From the IMG/VR virus record IMGVR_UViG_3300017710_000048, positions 1 through 25,076 of that record: DNA of 25,076 nucleotides. One strand, 5' to 3'. A program made the position numbers and the translations under genes. The stretch is from a virus. The notes under the pieces were generated by a model. That model was not told the origin of the DNA. It made no database searches and saw nothing but the letters and a program-made list of their open reading frames with translations. Below, piece by piece: positions 10,044-22,751 of the stretch; position 1 is the first letter of the stretch; each line of letters opens with the position of its first letter.

Positions 10044-11954
10044 CTATCCAACTTCTCCCCAATTTGACCCCATTTCAGCGTCTACATCAAAGGGTATTTT
10101 AAGTTCGGGTACACAATTACACATAATTTCTTTAATTTCTTTAATTTGTTTGTCGTTTTGAATGTTAAAGCATAGTTCATCATGAACTGTAAGCATGGGA
10201 GTAAGACCAGCATCATAACAATCTACCATTGCTTTCTTAGTTTGATCGGCACTCGAACCTTGGATTAATCTATTCAACGCCTTGTATGTAAATGCTCTTC
10301 TGATTCTACCCTTGCCGCCATACTCATCAATAGCTTCTTTCATAGGAAGTGCTTTGTTGTATTGATATGAGTGAGGCTCGTACATATTGAATCTACACTT
10401 ACGGCCCAACCAAGTTCTAATGATTCCACTTTGTGATGCTTTCTTAGATGTCTTCTCTGATATTGATTTTAAGAAAGGAACTTTATCATTGTACTTATCG
10501 AGAAGAGTAGTTGCTTCATCTACAGATAGGTCAAGAATGTTTGCTAACTTGCCTTTACCCATTCCATACATCAATCCAAGATTCACAGTCTTTGCTTGTT
10601 TTCTAGGTATACCTGCTATATCTGCAACAATCTGATGGAAGTCAGCTTCTCCTTTATGATACAAAGACACAACGTCATCTATCTGTGGGTGTCTGTCCAT
10701 ACCTGTAAGTGTCGCACAATAATGAACAAGCCATCTTGGTTCTTGTGAGGCATAGTCAAATGATCCCCACTTTGATCCTTCCTCTGGTATAAATAAACCT
10801 CTAATTAATTTTTTTATATATGGATCTCTTGCTGGTATTTGTTGTAAATTAGGATTAGAAGAACTAAAACGTCCAGTGACAGTACCACCACCGTCAGAAC
10901 GTAAAGGATGAAATTCACAATGTATTCTACCATCATGAGAATGTTCAAGAATTGTATCAATAAAAGTCGTGTTGGCTTTATTAATCTCTCTTATCTTTAT
11001 AATTTTCTTCGCAATAGGATGATGATGATTTGCAAGAAACTGTTTTGTAAACGCGGGGGCCCCGGACTTTTCTGTGCGAGAATACGCAAGTCCCATAGCA
11101 TCAAAGACCTTTGCTACAGATGTAGCGACCCAAGGTTCAACCGTGACTCCAGTCTCTTTGACTATCTCCTCTACAAGTGATTTCTCTAACGTCACTAACT
11201 CTTTCTTAACTTGCTCGGCTCTTCGTAAATCCACTCGTACACCATTTGTTTTCATATCCAAAAGCAATGGTGTAAGTCTTGTTTCTAAATTAAAGATACC
11301 CGTACACTCTTCTTTGGTTATTTCTTTTCGCAAGTAATCCCAAAGTTTCAAAGTTATAACTGCATCATGTTCTGCATATGCACCAACATAACGAGGTGGC
11401 AACTTCCACATACCAGACTTTGGATCTACACCAAATTCTTCTGCTGCACTTCTTAACATCTTCTCGTCTTTGTATGTCTTTAGATAATCGCCTGCCAAAG
11501 AGTTAAGATTGTAATACCTTCTGTTCTCATTTAACAATGGCGCTGCTACCATTGTATCTCTTATCTTGCCTTTAACTTCTATACCCTCGGCTCGTAACCA
11601 ACCTAAATCGTACAAGGCATTGTGGAACACGAAAGTTTTTGTAGTATCACTACATAATTTAGTAAGCCATTTATATACTGCGTTCTTGGGCATGTTACCC
11701 ACAGTATGTGCAACCGGGAAATACCAAGAACTTTCTCCAGCTGCTACTGCAATACCTATTATATGTCCATCTTTTCTAGTCCATCCAGGTCCTAGTTTTA
11801 AAAGATTCTCATCTCTTGTCTCCAGATCAATAGCTATCGTGTCATACTGTGATAGATCGGGTATAGCTTCGGGTGGTGTCCAATCTGAATCGACATTACC
11901 CCATGCCACATCTTTTATGTCTTGTTCCAATAAGTGGTATTGGTCACTTGTCAT
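10044..11954 (-). CDS. Family A DNA polymerase with 3'-5' exonuclease domain
   Basis: Numbering is from ATG at 11954, chosen because GGTGGAG lies 9 bases upstream. A GTG five codons earlier has no such site. The 636-residue protein has a DEDD proofreading domain: Exo I around D43/E45 (IDLE), Exo II H111-N112 and D116 (FHNALYDLGW), Exo III Y193 and D197 (YAEHD). The polymerase part has TGRFSS (360-365), motif A with D400 (FDYASQEPR), O-helix R451/K455/L459/Y463 (RKQAKTVNLGLMYG) and motif C H592-D593-E594 (VHDE). All catalytic carboxylates are present. There is no 5'-3' exonuclease domain, as usual in phage enzymes. The position equivalent to E. coli Phe762 is Leu. It is the last gene of the replication operon and overlaps the upstream gene by 11 bases. 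Role: genome replication. Confidence 0.95.
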   Translation of the reverse strand: MTSDQYHLLEQDIKDVAWGNVDSDWTPPEAIPDLSQYDTIAIDLETRDENLLKLGPGWTRKDGHIIGIAVAAGESSWYFPVAHTVGNMPKNAVYKWLTKLCSDTTKTFVFHNALYDLGWLRAEGIEVKGKIRDTMVAAPLLNENRRYYNLNSLAGDYLKTYKDEKMLRSAAEEFGVDPKSGMWKLPPRYVGAYAEHDAVITLKLWDYLRKEITKEECTGIFNLETRLTPLLLDMKTNGVRVDLRRAEQVKKELVTLEKSLVEEIVKETGVTVEPWVATSVAKVFDAMGLAYSRTEKSGAPAFTKQFLANHHHPIAKKIIKIREINKANTTFIDTILEHSHDGRIHCEFHPLRSDGGGTVTGRFSSSNPNLQQIPARDPYIKKLIRGLFIPEEGSKWGSFDYASQEPRWLVHYCATLTGMDRHPQIDDVVSLYHKGEADFHQIVADIAGIPRKQAKTVNLGLMYGMGKGKLANILDLSVDEATTLLDKYNDKVPFLKSISEKTSKKASQSGIIRTWLGRKCRFNMYEPHSYQYNKALPMKEAIDEYGGKGRIRRAFTYKALNRLIQGSSADQTKKAMVDCYDAGLTPMLTVHDELCFNIQNDKQIKEIKEIMCNCVPELKIPFDVDAEMGSNWGEVG

Positions 11955-13748: not shown

Positions 13749-15286
13749 TAGAACGGGACCTCCTCTTCTTCTATAGTAATTGGTTTAAGTTCTACTTCTC
13801 CACCAAACTCTGGTATCCACCAGACTCTTACAGATTTCCACTTACCTTGTGAGTTCTGAAACTTTTTAACTAACGAACTATCTCCGTTGTTTATTTCTTT
13901 CAATCTCTCTTGGACTTGTGCCCTTGTGTAGTTATCAAACTTTCTGCTTCTCAAGAACTCCATCAACGCATCTAACTTAAAAAAAGTTCTTGCATCTTCT
14001 ACATCTGTAAACGGTTTACCAATAACAACTTCTTCAAAACTCTGTGCTTGTACTCTGCCGGTGCAAAACAATTCTAGGTAAGATAGAAACTGTCCCTTGT
14101 ATGTCAGTTCTTGTGGCACGGCTATCTCATTACAGTTCTCAAGCAGACCGTTGACTTGTACTTCCCAATCTGCATCCTTCATCTTTGGTGGCATGAAGTT
14201 CAACTGCTCCATACATGCTCTCTGAAATAGCCTCGGTGCTTGTAGTTCTTCTGTTGTTAACTCAAGTCTTCTGCCATCTATATCCAAGAACCAAAGTCTA
14301 GGCTCCGATAGAATTACAGATAATCCACTGATAGCAGGCATTGATGTAGCACCAATACCATGCTTTAATCCACGACATACACTTTGATTACAATGTGATG
14401 ACATGGGTTCTTCCTTACATAGATACTGATATTCTTTCTTCTCTAATGTAGATTGGACTGTCACTATCTCTGATGCTGGTAAAGGTGGTGTAAAATGTTT
14501 TACATTCAACTGCTCCAACTGCATCTTCCAATCATTCGGAGATGCTTTTTGTAAGAAAACTCCAAGTTGGAAAGCTGCCTTGTTTCTACCACCTTCAAAT
14601 ATACCCATGCTCAACAATGACTTGAGGCACGGAACATAACCAGGAAATAAGTTTGGTTTACCACCCACAGATAGTTCCATGAATTTTTTAGGATCACACT
14701 TTATCTTATGTACTTGCTCTATGAACTCAGAAAGTGTTGCCTCTGTATATTTTTTGCCAACCTTGATTACGGCAAATCGCAGAGTCTGTTCGGAATCAAA
14801 GTATGGTAGGTTTATAAAATTGCCTACATCTCCTCGCTCCACCAACACCTGCTCTTGCTTTGGAAATATCTCACAACGTCCATGACCTAATGCAGCTGCT
14901 ATCTCGGCAGATTTATCTCTGAAATCGGCAGCTTCCATCCACTCCGTAAAGAAAAAGAATATATGTGCACCCCCACTTTTACTACGGCACACGATACACG
15001 GTACTTTTAATTTTTCTAATTTGTCCACCAAGGCATTGTGATCCAAAGGATACTCATCAATATCTAATGCACCAAACTTACATTTGTTTTCTGCATTGAT
15101 AGGTATAGAACCGACACCTTTTCTGCCGTCTACATGTCCTTGCATAAGTTCTAATGTTAATGGATTTCTTACGATAAATGATTTGGCTTTTTGTTTGCCG
15201 TTCATTCTTTGATTTGAAACTTCCGTCTGTCCGTGTGCTCCGTCAAAGCCTTCAAACGCAAGTAATAATTCTTCTGTTAAATTCAC
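13748..15286 (-). CDS. Archaeo-eukaryotic-type (AEP) DNA primase
   Basis: GTG at 15286 is chosen because GGAGAG lies a few bases upstream. A TTG four codons earlier has no site. The 512-residue product shows AEP motifs: FGALDID (catalytic D75, D77), SGGAH (104-108, His108) and a motif III region with NFINLPYF (156-163). A cysteine cluster follows (C290, C299, C304; CKEEPMSSHC, SVCRGLKHG), like the zinc-type element between the catalytic core and C-terminal domain of related phage primases. No DnaG TOPRIM or T7 gp4 features are seen. AEP primases make RNA or DNA primers and some have polymerase activity. The protein ends in EEEEVPF, like the acidic tip of bacterial SSB. It is encoded directly upstream of the helicase. 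Confidence 0.85.
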   Translation of the reverse strand: MNLTEELLLAFEGFDGAHGQTEVSNQRMNGKQKAKSFIVRNPLTLELMQGHVDGRKGVGSIPINAENKCKFGALDIDEYPLDHNALVDKLEKLKVPCIVCRSKSGGAHIFFFFTEWMEAADFRDKSAEIAAALGHGRCEIFPKQEQVLVERGDVGNFINLPYFDSEQTLRFAVIKVGKKYTEATLSEFIEQVHKIKCDPKKFMELSVGGKPNLFPGYVPCLKSLLSMGIFEGGRNKAAFQLGVFLQKASPNDWKMQLEQLNVKHFTPPLPASEIVTVQSTLEKKEYQYLCKEEPMSSHCNQSVCRGLKHGIGATSMPAISGLSVILSEPRLWFLDIDGRRLELTTEELQAPRLFQRACMEQLNFMPPKMKDADWEVQVNGLLENCNEIAVPQELTYKGQFLSYLELFCTGRVQAQSFEEVVIGKPFTDVEDARTFFKLDALMEFLRSRKFDNYTRAQVQERLKEINNGDSSLVKKFQNSQGKWKSVRVWWIPEFGGEVELKPITIEEEEVPF

Positions 15287-15294
15287 TCTTCTCT

Positions 15295-15340
15295 CCAAAA
15301 AATAAAAAGCCGTGTAGATGGAGGAGGTATCTACACGGCT
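15295..15340 (-). terminator. Strong intrinsic terminator between the ssDNA-binding-like gene and the primase
   Basis: AGCCGTGTAGAT (15308-15319) pairs perfectly with ATCTACACGGCT (15329-15340), a 12-bp stem with a 9-base loop. On the minus strand it is followed by TTTTTATTTTTT. It lies after the stop at 15348 and ends where the primase ribosome site begins. It would reduce transcription of primase, helicase and polymerase relative to the upstream ssDNA-binding-like gene. The loop on the transcript reads ACCUCCUCC. Confidence 0.92.
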
Positions 15341-16758: not shown

Positions 16759-16917
16759 TTATACCTTCTCGTCAACGAGTTTTTGGGACTCGTATTCTTT
16801 TTGTGTCAGATAGGTAATTGTACCACCCACTGTTCTAAAATTTTCTTTAGCCAATTCATTCAGTATCTTCCATGTATCAATCGGTACTGCTATTGACTTC
16901 CATTTATCTGTATCCAT
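16759..16917 (-). CDS. Small RHH-like protein (52 residues)
   Basis: A short frame begins at ATG 16917 with GGAG six bases upstream and ends at TAA 16759. The product runs MDTDKWKSIAVPIDTWKILN, then ELAKENFRTVGG and ITYLTQKEYES. A short strand (KSIAVPID) followed by two helices is what ribbon-helix-helix DNA-binding proteins look like, and RHH dimers often act as repressors. It lies between the 189-residue gene and a large inverted repeat that could be a regulatory site. The RHH call is tentative, but the clear ribosome site and operon position support a real gene. Confidence 0.5.
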   Translation of the reverse strand: MDTDKWKSIAVPIDTWKILNELAKENFRTVGGTITYLTQKEYESQKLVDEKV

Positions 16918-16938
16918 TTTTTACTCCATAAAAAGAAT

Positions 16939-16986
16939 GGGTAGGGATAACCATAACTGAAAGGAGAAACATGCAACTCCCTACCC
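16939..16986. repeat. 9-bp inverted repeat with T-runs on both sides (possible bidirectional terminator or regulatory stem)
   Basis: GGGTAGGGA at 16939-16947 is perfectly complementary to TCCCTACCC at 16978-16986, with a 30-base spacer. The plus strand continues GAACTTTTTTTT after the right arm and the minus strand continues ATTCTTTTT after the left arm. The spacer contains AAGGAG and an ATG on the plus strand. It lies in the roughly 150-base gap inside the replication operon. Confidence 0.5.
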
Positions 16987-17068
16987 GAACTTTTTTTTCA
17001 ATAATTAATTCTAAGGAATTAATAACTTCTTCTACCATTATTAACTCACATACGTCAAGCATAAAATC

Positions 17069-17569
17069 TTATACTTTCTCATATACTTTGTATTCTCTTC
17101 TAAGTTTATCCATCTTAAGAACTTCTGCCATCATATCTTGGCTATAATCTAGCACCTCTTTCCACTGATTTTTTTCTGATGGTTGTAAGAAATCATTTTG
17201 TGTTAGGCTCAACGACTTAACACTCATGAAAGATTCCACGGGAAAAAACAAAACAGCGCAAGTACTAGAGGTTGAATAAGCCGTAATATCTAGTGCCACT
17301 AATGCTATAATATCGCAGTCCTTTCGGGTGTAGCACCTTTTGTCGGCTCCTCTTGATATGGTAAAATTATATCTTCTCATATCATCACTCTGTAATACTG
17401 TCTTCACTTCCACCCGTTGTGCCACCTTTAATCCTGCACCACCAACCACGGCAATATCTACACCATCTTGTTTCACAGTTGATGCAGCGTAACCAAGCAT
17501 GGATAGTTTAAGGACTGTTGCATTTTCACCTGCATTACCTACAATCTTTTCGCCTCTTAACTTACTCAT
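17069..17569 (-). CDS. PD-(D/E)XK-fold nuclease (resolvase-like)
   Basis: ATG 17569 is preferred because GGAGG lies about eight bases upstream. Longer readings start within the upstream gene without such a site. The 166-residue product shows the order of a PD-(D/E)XK core: an acidic helix residue E15 in GNAGENATVLKL, D38 in QDGVDIAVV, and E54-x-K56 in QRVEVKT, followed by a polar helix region. This pattern suits Holliday-junction resolvase-like or restriction-type phage nucleases. No DNA-specificity domain is recognisable. It overlaps the zinc-ribbon gene by eight bases and lies downstream of an SNF2-type helicase. A role in processing replication or recombination intermediates is therefore likely, but the exact substrate is not known. 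Confidence 0.65.
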   Translation of the reverse strand: MSKLRGEKIVGNAGENATVLKLSMLGYAASTVKQDGVDIAVVGGAGLKVAQRVEVKTVLQSDDMRRYNFTISRGADKRCYTRKDCDIIALVALDITAYSTSSTCAVLFFPVESFMSVKSLSLTQNDFLQPSEKNQWKEVLDYSQDMMAEVLKMDKLRREYKVYEKV

Positions 17570-19450: not shown

Positions 19451-20191
19451 TTATCTAGTTCCATATACTTGCAATCTTATCTTTTTACTTGCAGACGTAT
19501 TATGATTATATAGTCGCTCAATATTCAAGATGAAATCATTACGGCTACCTTGATTCTTTAACTTAGAAGAATGATTCTTGAGTCTAGTCTCAAAAATTTT
19601 CCAAACGAAAGTAGAATCTTTTAGTGCAGAAATCATAGCACCAACAAAAGTTCTTTTCTTCCAAAATGGAAAATATTCTCCAACTGTCATAATTTTATTA
19701 GCCGTATCTTTTGCCCACTCTAAATCAATAACTTTAAAGTTTCCGTTCTTAAAATCATTTAAGTCAATAGCCGTATGATAACCTTTATTATTTAACATAG
19801 AGATAGAGTCCGAAATACTAAACTCATAGTGCCTATGAAACCATTCAAGAATTTCATAATCCGTATTGCCTAGTTTCACATGGCTCATAAGATATTCTTC
19901 CATAGTCCACTTTCTTGATACAGAATTTAACTTTCTAATATCAAAAATATCCAGGCCTTCCTTTATTATATAAGTAATAGGAATACTCAAAGCCTTATAT
20001 GCTTCAAGTCTATGTTGACCTTCACATACTTCCATCTTCTCATTTACTATTATAGGTATCTGAAAATCTTTTATAGTTATCTGCTCTGATAAACTCTTAA
20101 CATGAGCCTCTACTACGTCTCGATTACCTGCTATATATTTAAACTGATCGTAGTCAGTAGTCGTATGAATTTTCATATTTGCTTTAGACAC
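19451..20191 (-). CDS. ParB-fold DNA-binding/nuclease-like protein
   Basis: GTG 20191 follows GGAGG at a normal distance. The 246-residue product has a ParB/sulfiredoxin-type N-terminal domain. It includes NRDVVEAHVKSLSEQI (23-38), FQIPIIVN (43-50) and EGQHRLEAYKAL (57-68), the last being the conserved box II. The C-terminal half is helical and basic (RLKNHSSKLKNQGSR) and could bind DNA. Phage ParB-fold proteins have varied roles: partition, nuclease, or regulation of methylation and recombination. No ParA ATPase is encoded in the window, so partition in the usual sense is not supported. It is coupled (8-base overlap) to an upstream RHH gene. Confidence 0.75.
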   Translation of the reverse strand: MSKANMKIHTTTDYDQFKYIAGNRDVVEAHVKSLSEQITIKDFQIPIIVNEKMEVCEGQHRLEAYKALSIPITYIIKEGLDIFDIRKLNSVSRKWTMEEYLMSHVKLGNTDYEILEWFHRHYEFSISDSISMLNNKGYHTAIDLNDFKNGNFKVIDLEWAKDTANKIMTVGEYFPFWKKRTFVGAMISALKDSTFVWKIFETRLKNHSSKLKNQGSRNDFILNIERLYNHNTSASKKIRLQVYGTR

Positions 20192-20456
20192 TTTGTTTCC
20201 TCCTATTTTTTAAAGTCTCTTTAACCATCAATGCTACTGTTGCATTAATAGTTCTATTGTCTTTCTTGGCTATCCTTCTAATCTGCTCGTATACCGAAAC
20301 ACGGACATTTAAGGATTTGTAAGATGTATCGGCATCATCAAAATGATACATCTCTTTGGCATCATCACTTAATTTTTCCTTGGGTATGATGCCATCAACA
20401 AAATCATCAACTTCTTTTTCGATTTCGTCTTCCCAAAGTCTTTTAGTTTTTCCCAC
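20184..20456 (-). CDS. Ribbon-helix-helix protein, first gene of the replication operon
   Basis: GTG 20456 has TAGGAG five bases upstream. The 90-residue product has a charged N-terminal half (WEDEIEKEVDDFVDG) and a C-terminal RHH-like module (about 48-86). The latter consists of LNVRVSVYEQIRRIAKKDNR followed by TINATVALMVKETLKN, that is, a strand and two helices. RHH proteins bind operators as dimers, with the strand in the major groove. As first gene of the leftward operon, beside a presumed promoter, it may repress its own operon. A partition-type partner for the ParB-fold protein is an alternative. Both are inferred. Confidence 0.6.
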   Translation of the reverse strand: MGKTKRLWEDEIEKEVDDFVDGIIPKEKLSDDAKEMYHFDDADTSYKSLNVRVSVYEQIRRIAKKDNRTINATVALMVKETLKNRRKQSV

Positions 20457-20479: not shown

Positions 20480-20520
20480 TTATTTATATATAAGTAATGT
20501 ATGGGATACAATAAGTCAAG
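20480..20520 (-). promoter_or_regulatory. Candidate leftward promoter/operator of the replication operon
   Basis: On the minus strand TTGACT (20514-20519) resembles a -35 box, with AT-rich TATATA-type sequence further downstream. The best -10 match is weak or oddly spaced. Between them lies TATCCCATA on the minus strand (plus-strand TATGGGATA at 20500-20508). The same nine bases, inverted, occur in the other leftward promoter region near 24.9 kb. It lies just upstream of the first gene of the operon. Confidence 0.4.
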
Positions 20521-20591
20521 TGGTATATAAAAGTTTTTTTACATAGAGTTTCTGTCATATTTTTTTGTTTAATAAAATTTTTTAAAAATAG
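20521..20591. other. AT-rich segment beside the repeat cluster
   Basis: This stretch is made almost entirely of A and T, with runs such as TTTTTTTG and AATTTTTTAAAAATA and few G or C. It contains no convincing gene. It lies between the leftward promoter and the GTGTAGAAA repeats, where an origin would place its easily melted DNA. The origin link is an inference. Confidence 0.4.
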
Positions 20592-20679
20592 GTGTAGAAA
20601 GTGTAGAAACGTAGAAAACACTCTGTAACCCTTGGTAGTACTAGAGGTTCTTTCTACACTTTGGTTACACTTTCTACAC
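20592..20679. repeat. Iteron-like cluster of GTGTAGAAA direct and inverted repeats
   Basis: GTGTAGAAA occurs at 20592-20600 and 20601-20609, followed by a variant CGTAGAAAA at 20610-20618. Its reverse complement TTTCTACAC occurs at 20651-20659 and 20671-20679. Between the inverted copies GGTTACA (20663-20669) mirrors TGTAACC (20624-20630). The whole forms a nested inverted array centred on AGTACT. It lies between the divergent replication operon and terS. Confidence 0.8.
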
Positions 20680-20751
20680 TTCAAAGCCGACCGCGTCATT
20701 TTTTTTCCTTTTTTTATTGATAAAATATGGGAGAAACTCTACTATAGGGTT

Positions 20752-21301: not shown

Positions 21302-21658
21302 TCAACTGTCTTTCGAGTTTAGTAAAATCTTTTCAGTTCCATCTTTCTGTATCTCTGTAAGAACAACATCATCATGATCTTTAGCTACCCAATTATAGTA
21401 GTCCATTTGTGCTTTACTAAAGTTCTTGTAATAGTCATCAACACCACCAACCCAAACAATAAATCGCCAACCATTTTTATATTCGGTCAACGGATTTTTA
21501 GGAGTTGGAGTTGCTTTCTCAAGTTCTATCTTAACTGTTCTTAATGCTTCTGCTACATCAACAATAGTTTCTTCGCTATAGTCATCTTTGTCATTAAAAA
21601 CAATGTCGGCATAGTCATCTAAAACTTTATGAATTAATTGTAGTTGTTTAAGTTCCAC
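21302..21658 (-). CDS. Phage hypothetical protein at the end of the accessory operon
   Basis: GTG 21658 is chosen because AAGGAG lies seven bases upstream. A TTG two codons earlier sits too close to that site. The 118-residue product has a helical N-terminal half (LIHKVLDDYADIVFNDKDD) and a C-terminal block (NGWRFIVWVGGVDDYYKNF, then AQMDYYNWVAKDHDDVVLTE) that I recognise from small phage hypotheticals. No active-site motif is apparent. It overlaps the methyltransferase end by 11 bases, so it is co-translated with it. Function unknown. Confidence 0.55.
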   Translation of the reverse strand: MELKQLQLIHKVLDDYADIVFNDKDDYSEETIVDVAEALRTVKIELEKATPTPKNPLTEYKNGWRFIVWVGGVDDYYKNFSKAQMDYYNWVAKDHDDVVLTEIQKDGTEKILLNSKDS

Positions 21659-22751
21659 TTTCAATCTCCTTCTTGATTGCTAATCCAATTAATTTTGCAT
21701 TAAAAGGAACGATTGCATTTCCTAAAGCCTTCAGTCTGTTGGCTCTGTCTTGTTGGTCGATTGTGATTCTTGGGACTTCTCTAGGTTCGTCCAACCAATA
21801 GGATACCCCATCAACCATTCCACCCAATCGCAATTTAGTCTTGCATCTCCCTCTATCTGATAAATCTTGTGTGTCAGATCGATTTGTCTGCCGTCCTTCA
21901 ATCTTTTCTCGTAGTATTGATTGTTGCCGTTGTAACTGTGTTTCTTCAGTCCCGAGTTCGGTGTTGGAAACTTCCACTCTTCCATTCTCGGTGGTCTTAA
22001 AGTTACTCCGTTCATCATGGCTTGAGCTTCTGCTTCCGTCAGTTCGCCCTTCTCCACTTTCCTTCTGAACATCATGGTTTGTCCCTCTGAAGCGTGTCCG
22101 TATCCCTTCGTTGTTGGAGTTGGATACATTTCCATTGTCTTCGGGTCTACTTGCTCCCTCAAATTGCTCGGTCTTTTGCGACCTTTTCTGTGTGTCTGTT
22201 GCAATTTCTTGGTTGCTTCTGCACTTCTTGGTGGAAGGGAATCCATAGTTGTCGGGGTCGCCCAAGTTTCTACAGACGATCCAAAGTCTGTCCCTTTTGT
22301 GTCTTGCTCCGATTGCACTAGACGGAAATACAAATGTCCTCGTATGGTAGTTGATGCTTTCCATTTGAAACAAAACCTCGTCAAGTCCCAATGAGATGTG
22401 TCCATACACATTTTCGAAAACACAATAAGAGGGTCTTGTTTGTTCAACAATGCTATGCAAGAACGGAAAGATTCTTCGAGGGTCATTCGGATCTCTTTTG
22501 CCACTTGTGGAAAATGGTTGGCACGGGTAACCCCCCGTGATAATATCGGGTCTTTCGGAAATAAATCTTCTTGGGTCATCTGCGATCTCCTTCACATCAT
22601 TAAAAATTGGAATTCCTGGGAAATTTTTATTAAGCACTTTATGACAGAATTTGTCCGTATCACAAAATGCCATTGGCTCGGATAGATTTGCTTGTTGGAA
22701 ACCAAAAGCAAACCCACCGATACCACTACATAAGTCTAAATGTTTAAGCAT
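21648..22751 (-). CDS. C5-cytosine DNA methyltransferase
   Basis: The 367-residue product has m5C methyltransferase motifs. Motif I is LDLCSGIGGFAFGF (5-18, S-adenosylmethionine binding). Motif IV is GGYPCQPFS (73-81; catalytic Cys77), motif VI is FENV (112-115), motif VIII is IGARHKRDRLWIV (147-159) and motif X is RLKALGNAIVPFNAKLIG (339-356). Between VIII and X, where a target-recognition domain should lie, it is almost only polar and charged residues (about 165-305; Asn, Ser, Thr, Arg, Glu). That is atypical of a folded domain. The enzyme would methylate cytosine and may protect phage DNA from restriction. The middle part coincides with a second open frame that looks more protein-like. The start overlaps the preceding gene by eight bases. 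Confidence 0.85.
   Translation of the reverse strand: MLKHLDLCSGIGGFAFGFQQANLSEPMAFCDTDKFCHKVLNKNFPGIPIFNDVKEIADDPRRFISERPDIITGGYPCQPFSTSGKRDPNDPRRIFPFLHSIVEQTRPSYCVFENVYGHISLGLDEVLFQMESINYHTRTFVFPSSAIGARHKRDRLWIVCRNLGDPDNYGFPSTKKCRSNQEIATDTQKRSQKTEQFEGASRPEDNGNVSNSNNEGIRTRFRGTNHDVQKESGEGRTDGSRSSSHDERSNFKTTENGRVEVSNTELGTEETQLQRQQSILREKIEGRQTNRSDTQDLSDRGRCKTKLRLGGMVDGVSYWLDEPREVPRITIDQQDRANRLKALGNAIVPFNAKLIGLAIKKEIESGT
21731..22579 (-). CDS. Overlapping second-frame ORF inside the methyltransferase gene
   Basis: A same-strand frame of 282 codons runs inside the methyltransferase gene. ATG 22579 follows AAGGAG by seven bases, an excellent ribosome site. The product has protein-like composition where the main frame is polar. 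Blocks include CFKWKASTTIRGHLYFRLV (70-88), TWATPTTMDSLPPRS (105-119), YPTPTTKGYG (152-161), FRRKVEKGELTEAEAQAMMN (171-190) and LNCDWVEWLMGYPIGWTNLE (248-267). From memory, the WPTPT and WVEWLMGxPxGWT-type blocks recur in phage proteins annotated as methyltransferase pieces. It could be a separate protein, a target-recognition part made in trans, or a frameshift-expressed segment. If only the outer frame is real, this is coincidence, but the combination makes that unlikely. Confidence 0.6.
   Translation of the reverse strand: MTQEDLFPKDPILSRGVTRANHFPQVAKEIRMTLEESFRSCIALLNKQDPLIVFSKMCMDTSHWDLTRFCFKWKASTTIRGHLYFRLVQSEQDTKGTDFGSSVETWATPTTMDSLPPRSAEATKKLQQTHRKGRKRPSNLREQVDPKTMEMYPTPTTKGYGHASEGQTMMFRRKVEKGELTEAEAQAMMNGVTLRPPRMEEWKFPTPNSGLKKHSYNGNNQYYEKRLKDGRQIDLTHKIYQIEGDARLNCDWVEWLMGYPIGWTNLEKSQESQSTNKTEPTD

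Follow-up and report, generated by a model that had tools for sequence, protein, structure and literature searches.

The window considered here (the whole stretch of DNA analysed, 25,076 nucleotides) contains a noncoding element of about 200 bp that separates a leftward replication operon from terS. The immediate left neighbour of the repeat array in this element is a gene for a 90-aa ribbon-helix-helix (RHH) protein (20184-20456). A sequence-only reading of this DNA had described a repeat cluster in this position, and all of the units that it named are found there: two perfect GTGTAGAAA repeats, a variant CGTAGAAA, two inverted TTTCTACAC copies and, among the repeats, TGTAACC and its inverse, GGTTACAC (Table 1). 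GTGTAGAAA occurs four times in the 25 kb window, in every case within the same 88 bp; in dinucleotide shuffles its count averages 0.46 and never exceeds 2. The same reading gave about 70 bases of nearly pure A/T beside the repeats, which holds for the AT-rich block listed in Table 1, but the wider 67 bases are only about 88% A/T by hand count. It omitted three further features: a 33-nt outer inverted repeat, a promoter directed toward terS, and a conserved box beyond the right arm. The outer repeat is 76% complementary and encloses the array, with AATATGRNAGAAAC in both of its arms; in the window this sequence is confined to the two flanks of the array.

Table 1. Features of the repeat array and of the primase gene in the window.
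Feature	Position	Strand	Remarks
AEP-TOTE primase, 516 aa	13748..15298	-	proposed origin-binding protein
Primase C-terminal winged-helix domain, residues 395-500	13799..14116	-	predicted, AlphaFold2, pLDDT 78.6
Codons of primase residues 489, 487, 479	13832..13864	-	on predicted beta-wing; S, W, K here
Outer inverted repeat, left arm	20544..20576		holds promoter-like AATATGACAGAAAC (20548-20561, - strand) facing replication operon; conserved in relatives
AT-rich block, candidate DNA unwinding element	20557..20590		retained in relatives whatever the unit type
Left arm, three direct units	20592..20617	+	word tracks primase wing residues
Left-arm units GTGTAGAAA (GTGTAGAA-type), perfect	20592-20600, 20601-20609	+	9-bp period
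Left-arm third unit, variant CGTAGAAA	20610-20617	+	
Spacer, 33 nt	20618..20650		holds TGTAACCCTTGG
TGTAACC	20624-20630		
Right arm, three inverted units	20651..20679	-	from outer end: GTGTAGAAA, GTGTAACC(A), GTGTAGAAA; spacing 9 + 11 bp
Inverted copies TTTCTACAC, perfect	20651-20659, 20671-20679	-	
GGTTACAC	20663-20670		
Conserved box AAAGCCGACCGCGTCAT, then T-tract	20683..20699	+	present in 24 of 30 contigs
Outer inverted repeat, right arm	20709..20741		holds AATATGGGAGAAAC (20724-20737, + strand)
Sigma-70-like promoter toward terS, TTGATA-17-TACTAT	20717..20745	+	consensus match; conserved

A search of IMG/VR with TerS yielded 48 loci, and those reaching far enough upstream carry the same element in the same place, except for two distant ones (L047 and L048). 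A primase search added loci, giving 71 with an array that could be read by script, some of which are overlapping loci of one contig. The layout shared by about 70 uncultivated marine phage loci, beside terS, consists of an AT-rich block, three direct units, a spacer, and three inverted units, followed beyond the right arm by a GACCGCGTCA-type box, a T-tract, and flanking promoter-like repeats; in L041, for example, the position of the terS promoter is occupied by TTGAAA-17-TATAGT. Repeat number, orientation, and spacing are conserved among the relatives, as is the adjacent AT-rich region, and right-arm spacing is 9 and then 11-13 bp in nearly all loci. The unit word itself varies: GTGT is followed by AGAA, AACC, AGCA, AACA, ATAA, ACAA, AACG, or AATG, the last two having come from additional searches with TerS and with the primase. 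Left-arm units are mostly uniform within a genome, left and right arms differ in type in L148, L165, L173, and L270, and the spacer falls into at least two classes that are mixed with respect to unit type. Phages of one clade share nearly constant flanks but differ in their unit words, which makes it possible to test which protein reads the word. A DNA search with the array region in a phage collection gave no match, and the genome contigs searched included one distant relative, in which no array was recognised.

Some observations concern the surroundings of the array in these relatives. In some of them (L003-L010 upstream of terS, and L021), an inserted small zinc-ribbon-like protein (MYKQRNIILKYQDKEKCTRCRVAMKKIALTFKNN...) separates the array from the RHH gene; the position to the left of the array is thus a variable slot for accessory genes. 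Four contigs (L002, L013, L018, and L023) end shortly before terS, within 25-86 bases of it on the upstream side, and in two of the four the end falls at the edge of the right arm; these ends are perhaps assembly breaks caused by variation of the array in the population. Two contigs of 61,857 and 60,583 bases (G054 and G055; loci L320-L327) have their last 40 bases recurring near the start, suggesting circular maps; an exact end-overlap test on the two found no overlap.

Short-repeat clusters also lie near terS in three phages with related TerS and primase genes, HTVC023P, HTVC027P, and 023Pt_psg01. The repeat words are ACTAGGAAAA in HTVC023P, GTGTTACAA/GTGTGACAA in HTVC027P, and GTGTGCCA in 023Pt_psg01; the predicted array positions are about 11680-11790 in the HTVC023P record and about 14755-14900 in that of HTVC027P. 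These arrays resemble the one described here in having short repeated units, AT-rich flanks, and a primase of the same family, but the unit words are very different, and in HTVC027P and 023Pt_psg01 the similar cluster lies across terS, on its 3' side. This comparison is weaker than the rest because the clusters were picked by eye after a k-mer scan.

If the units are read by a protein, that protein should change wherever the word changes and stay alike among phages that share a word. Each alignment column was therefore scored by how well distant phages sharing a left-arm word agree, less the agreement between close phages whose words differ, in an exploratory scan of 13 protein alignments and 4,085 columns. 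The highest score, 0.86, belongs to residue 489 of the primase, and the next best column in the 13 proteins scores 0.57. When word labels were shuffled within clades, this score was reached in 0 of 2,000 shuffles at residue 489 and in 1 of 2,000 at any primase column. The primase matches PF22548 over residues 44-171 (E 5.7e-16; 59.2 bits against a cut-off of 27), which places it in the AEP-TOTE family. Loci with AACG and AATG arrays from one search carry no primase and lie outside this test, and the right arm fails to match the primase in some genomes.

The sequence-only reading had named TerS and RHH proteins among those to be tested for binding to the region, and the comparison goes against both as readers of these repeats. 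TerS is 100% identical between phages with AGAAA arrays (L033/L037) and AGCAT arrays (L038/L039), and its best column scores 0.39; the neighbouring RHH protein is likewise 100% identical between AGAAA and AGCAT phages, and a small RHH-like protein of 52 aa is identical in AACC, AGAA, and AACA phages. None of the three therefore sets word specificity. Since genes closer to the array than the primase do not track the word, linkage alone is no explanation for the behaviour of the primase. Among the candidates for the specificity factor, SF1 helicase, SNF2 helicase, the gp33/gp34-like proteins, polA, and the ParB-like, RHH, small RHH, and TerS proteins all fail to track the word across clades. Primase residue 72 (K/Q) looked promising with few genomes and faded with more.

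Two other residues of the primase, 479 and 487, vary with the word together with residue 489. At position 489, AGAA phages have S, phages with AACC, AACA, or ACAA have T, AGCA phages have N, and ATAA phages have S or A. Position 479 holds R with AACA units, N or G with ATAA units, and K with the others, and position 487 holds T or S with AACA units and W with all others. The S, W, and K found at 489, 487, and 479 in the present phage predict GTGTAGAA units, with which its array agrees. The residue sets (given in the order 479, 487, 489) recur across primase clades, KWS with AGAA in three, KWT with AACC in two, R(T/S)T with AACA in two, and NWS with ATAA in two, and the primases of clades sharing a set are only 73-80% identical.

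Because the scan was exploratory, independent cases were sought. Words predicted from the three residues matched in all of L218 (AACA), L131 (AACC), L169 (ATAA), and L235 and L237 (both AGAA); matches to predictions made before the array was read are also given under loci L218, L246, L247, L248, and L249, and the total is five of six contigs. For L131, L169, L235, and L237 the primase residues were known before the array DNA was fetched. Only L235/L237, which represent one lineage, are clearly independent of kinship, because their clade had no genome with both primase and array in the first analysis. The sixth prediction missed: L283 has NWS but AACG units, and it also carries K478R and has R at 481, where ATAA phages of its kind have K. 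The pairing of KWT with both AACC and ACAA indicates that the three residues are not the whole code, and together with the L283 miss it makes the recognition code a partial one.

All three residues fall on one predicted structural element. In the AlphaFold2 model of residues 395-500, helices are followed by a beta-hairpin (475-481 / 487-493), the wing of a predicted winged-helix domain, and residues 479, 487, and 489 lie on this hairpin; the model of the full-length primase is poor (pLDDT 60.7). The top VIA-align match to the domain is TcpK bound to oriT DNA (5vfx; Z 5.6, rmsd 3.2, 83 residues), and the third is the SCCmec Cch helicase (Z 4.3). The VIA-align matches listed are largely winged-helix proteins with Z at most 5.6, and, being below 8, they may reflect only a common fold. 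In a viral structure library the best matches to the model are phage primases. A Pfam search of the C-terminal domain gave no match, a PDB sequence search with a winged-helix profile returned only chance matches, and a Foldseek comparison of the domain with the PDB gave none with E below 0.001.

These observations point to the element as probably the iteron-type replication origin of the phage, at which its own AEP-TOTE primase would bind the left-arm units through the beta-wing of its C-terminal winged helix; the covariation supports this origin reading well, short of proving it. The short direct repeats have the conserved number and spacing of iterons, with three direct and three inverted units, and lie next to an AT-rich region here and in relatives. 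In the proposed mechanism, the primase wing would bind the tandem units of the left arm, and the bound array, with the AT-rich block alongside and the second, inverted arm, would position the primase and the phage helicases; the AT-rich block would then melt, and primers would be laid for the phage DNA polymerase, so that replication would start at the array. Cumulative GC skew, computed for the window and two contigs of about 61 kb, follows gene orientation; being dominated by it, the skew gives no support for an origin.

The sequence-only reading had left the choice among an origin, a pac/cos site, and an operator, and of these the origin is the best supported, with packaging by TerS and an RHH operator both weakened. 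The main rival is a pure operator, because the array has promoter-like elements on both sides that face outward: with the primase or some other phage protein bound to it between divergent promoters, the array would control the replication operon and terS without serving as an origin. Initiators often autoregulate, and primase binding could serve transcription too. A role confined to regulation is nevertheless unlikely, as HTVC027P and 023Pt carry similar arrays in other gene contexts, away from the terS promoter, and a specificity factor that is a priming enzyme is more in keeping with an origin than with an operator alone. Small terminases commonly bind repeats close to their own gene, and the array lies directly upstream of terS, as a pac site bound by TerS might. 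That TerS would read these repeats is very improbable, given an identical TerS beside AGAAA and AGCAT arrays, the low score of its best column, and the position of the array 3' of terS in HTVC027P and 023Pt. This evidence concerns the repeats and not the adjoining conserved box, which, with its T-tract, may be a TerS site.

RHH proteins, for their part, often bind short repeats upstream of their own gene, and the RHH gene beside the array is followed by one for a ParB-like protein (phrog_12305, E 2.1e-30), so the array could be the operator or partition site of these two proteins. The identity of the RHH proteins across unit types shows that the neighbouring one does not read the word; in addition, the ParB-like gene is missing from several loci that bear the array, and no gene resembling ParA was noticed in the scan of window proteins, which together make such a site quite improbable. 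Pairing between the two arms, as RNA structure or cruciform, would account for arms that are inverted repeats and often switch together. It is the least probable explanation, and a highly improbable one: units are also repeated within one arm, the arms differ in type in the four loci named above, an Rfam search of the region found no match, and a primase residue that tracks the word would not be expected from pairing.

The proposed iteron origin read by the primase has partial counterparts in several known systems. Lambda O and ori-lambda likewise involve phage iterons beside an AT-rich block, and lambdoid relatives have different origin specificities; O, however, initiates replication without being a primase, and the lambda origin is located within gene O. 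The array described here, unlike that of lambda, is separated from the primase gene by about 5 kb or more. In phage P4, the phage primase is the alpha protein, which uses a winged-helix domain to bind the repeats of the origin (PMC4234260), but it has a bacterial Toprim-type primase fused to a helicase, whereas the present protein is an AEP-TOTE primase without a fused helicase, with other units. The AEP primase-helicase ORF904 of pRN1 and phages BIP-1/BPP-1 share an AEP primase with a C-terminal winged helix as the proposed origin binder (PMC4234260); their proposed origin, in contrast, is a large stem-loop without iterons, and their helicase is fused. TcpK of pCW3, the top structural match, binds tandem 9-nt repeats in oriT with its wing in the major groove (PMC6137059), which is the mode of reading by a beta-wing proposed here, but TcpK is a conjugation accessory protein and not a primase, and a Z of 5.6 is no proof of kinship.

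The proposal is thus of an iteron origin with an AEP primase as its specificity factor and recurrent switching of both partners. Since the word switches repeatedly with the flanks fixed, the phages would fall into origin-specificity groups, and the recurrent switching suggests selection on origin identity. Lambda replication is blocked by ectopic (decoy) origins (PMC4488673), and PLE satellites reportedly come under selection for altered iterons from a nuclease that targets the origin (PMC8263062). A broader proposal, put forward tentatively, is that interchangeable origin-specificity groups exist among the marine podophage relatives of the HTVC023P type, in which a free-standing AEP primase reads the iterons through a few wing residues and iterons and wing switch together repeatedly, perhaps as a way to evade decoy origins, relatives infecting the same cell, or nucleases that cut the origin. 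Pelagiphages of the HTVC023P type are widespread, and for their relatives both an origin and a protein that would bind it can now be put forward as candidates; the main text of a paper on 80 HTVC023P-type genomes does not use the terms replication origin or iteron (PMC9599517). The wing residues and DNA words amount to a partial recognition code, which the natural variants make directly testable.

Several other features of the window lie apart from the array. A perfect hairpin, GCCGTGTAGATGGAGGAGGTATCTACACGGC (15311-15340), between a Pam3 gp34-like gene and the primase gene resembles a terminator or a processing hairpin inside the replication operon. The ORF of the small RHH-like protein (MDTDKWKSIAVPIDTWKILNELAKENFRTVGGTITYL...; 16759-16917, - strand) is conserved in relatives, and upstream of it, in the gap before a gene ending at 17069, is an inverted repeat, GGGTAGGG ... 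CCCTACCC (16938-16988). Two long ORFs on the - strand, 21648-22751 and 21731-22579, overlap in different frames, and the longer looks like a DNA cytosine methyltransferase.
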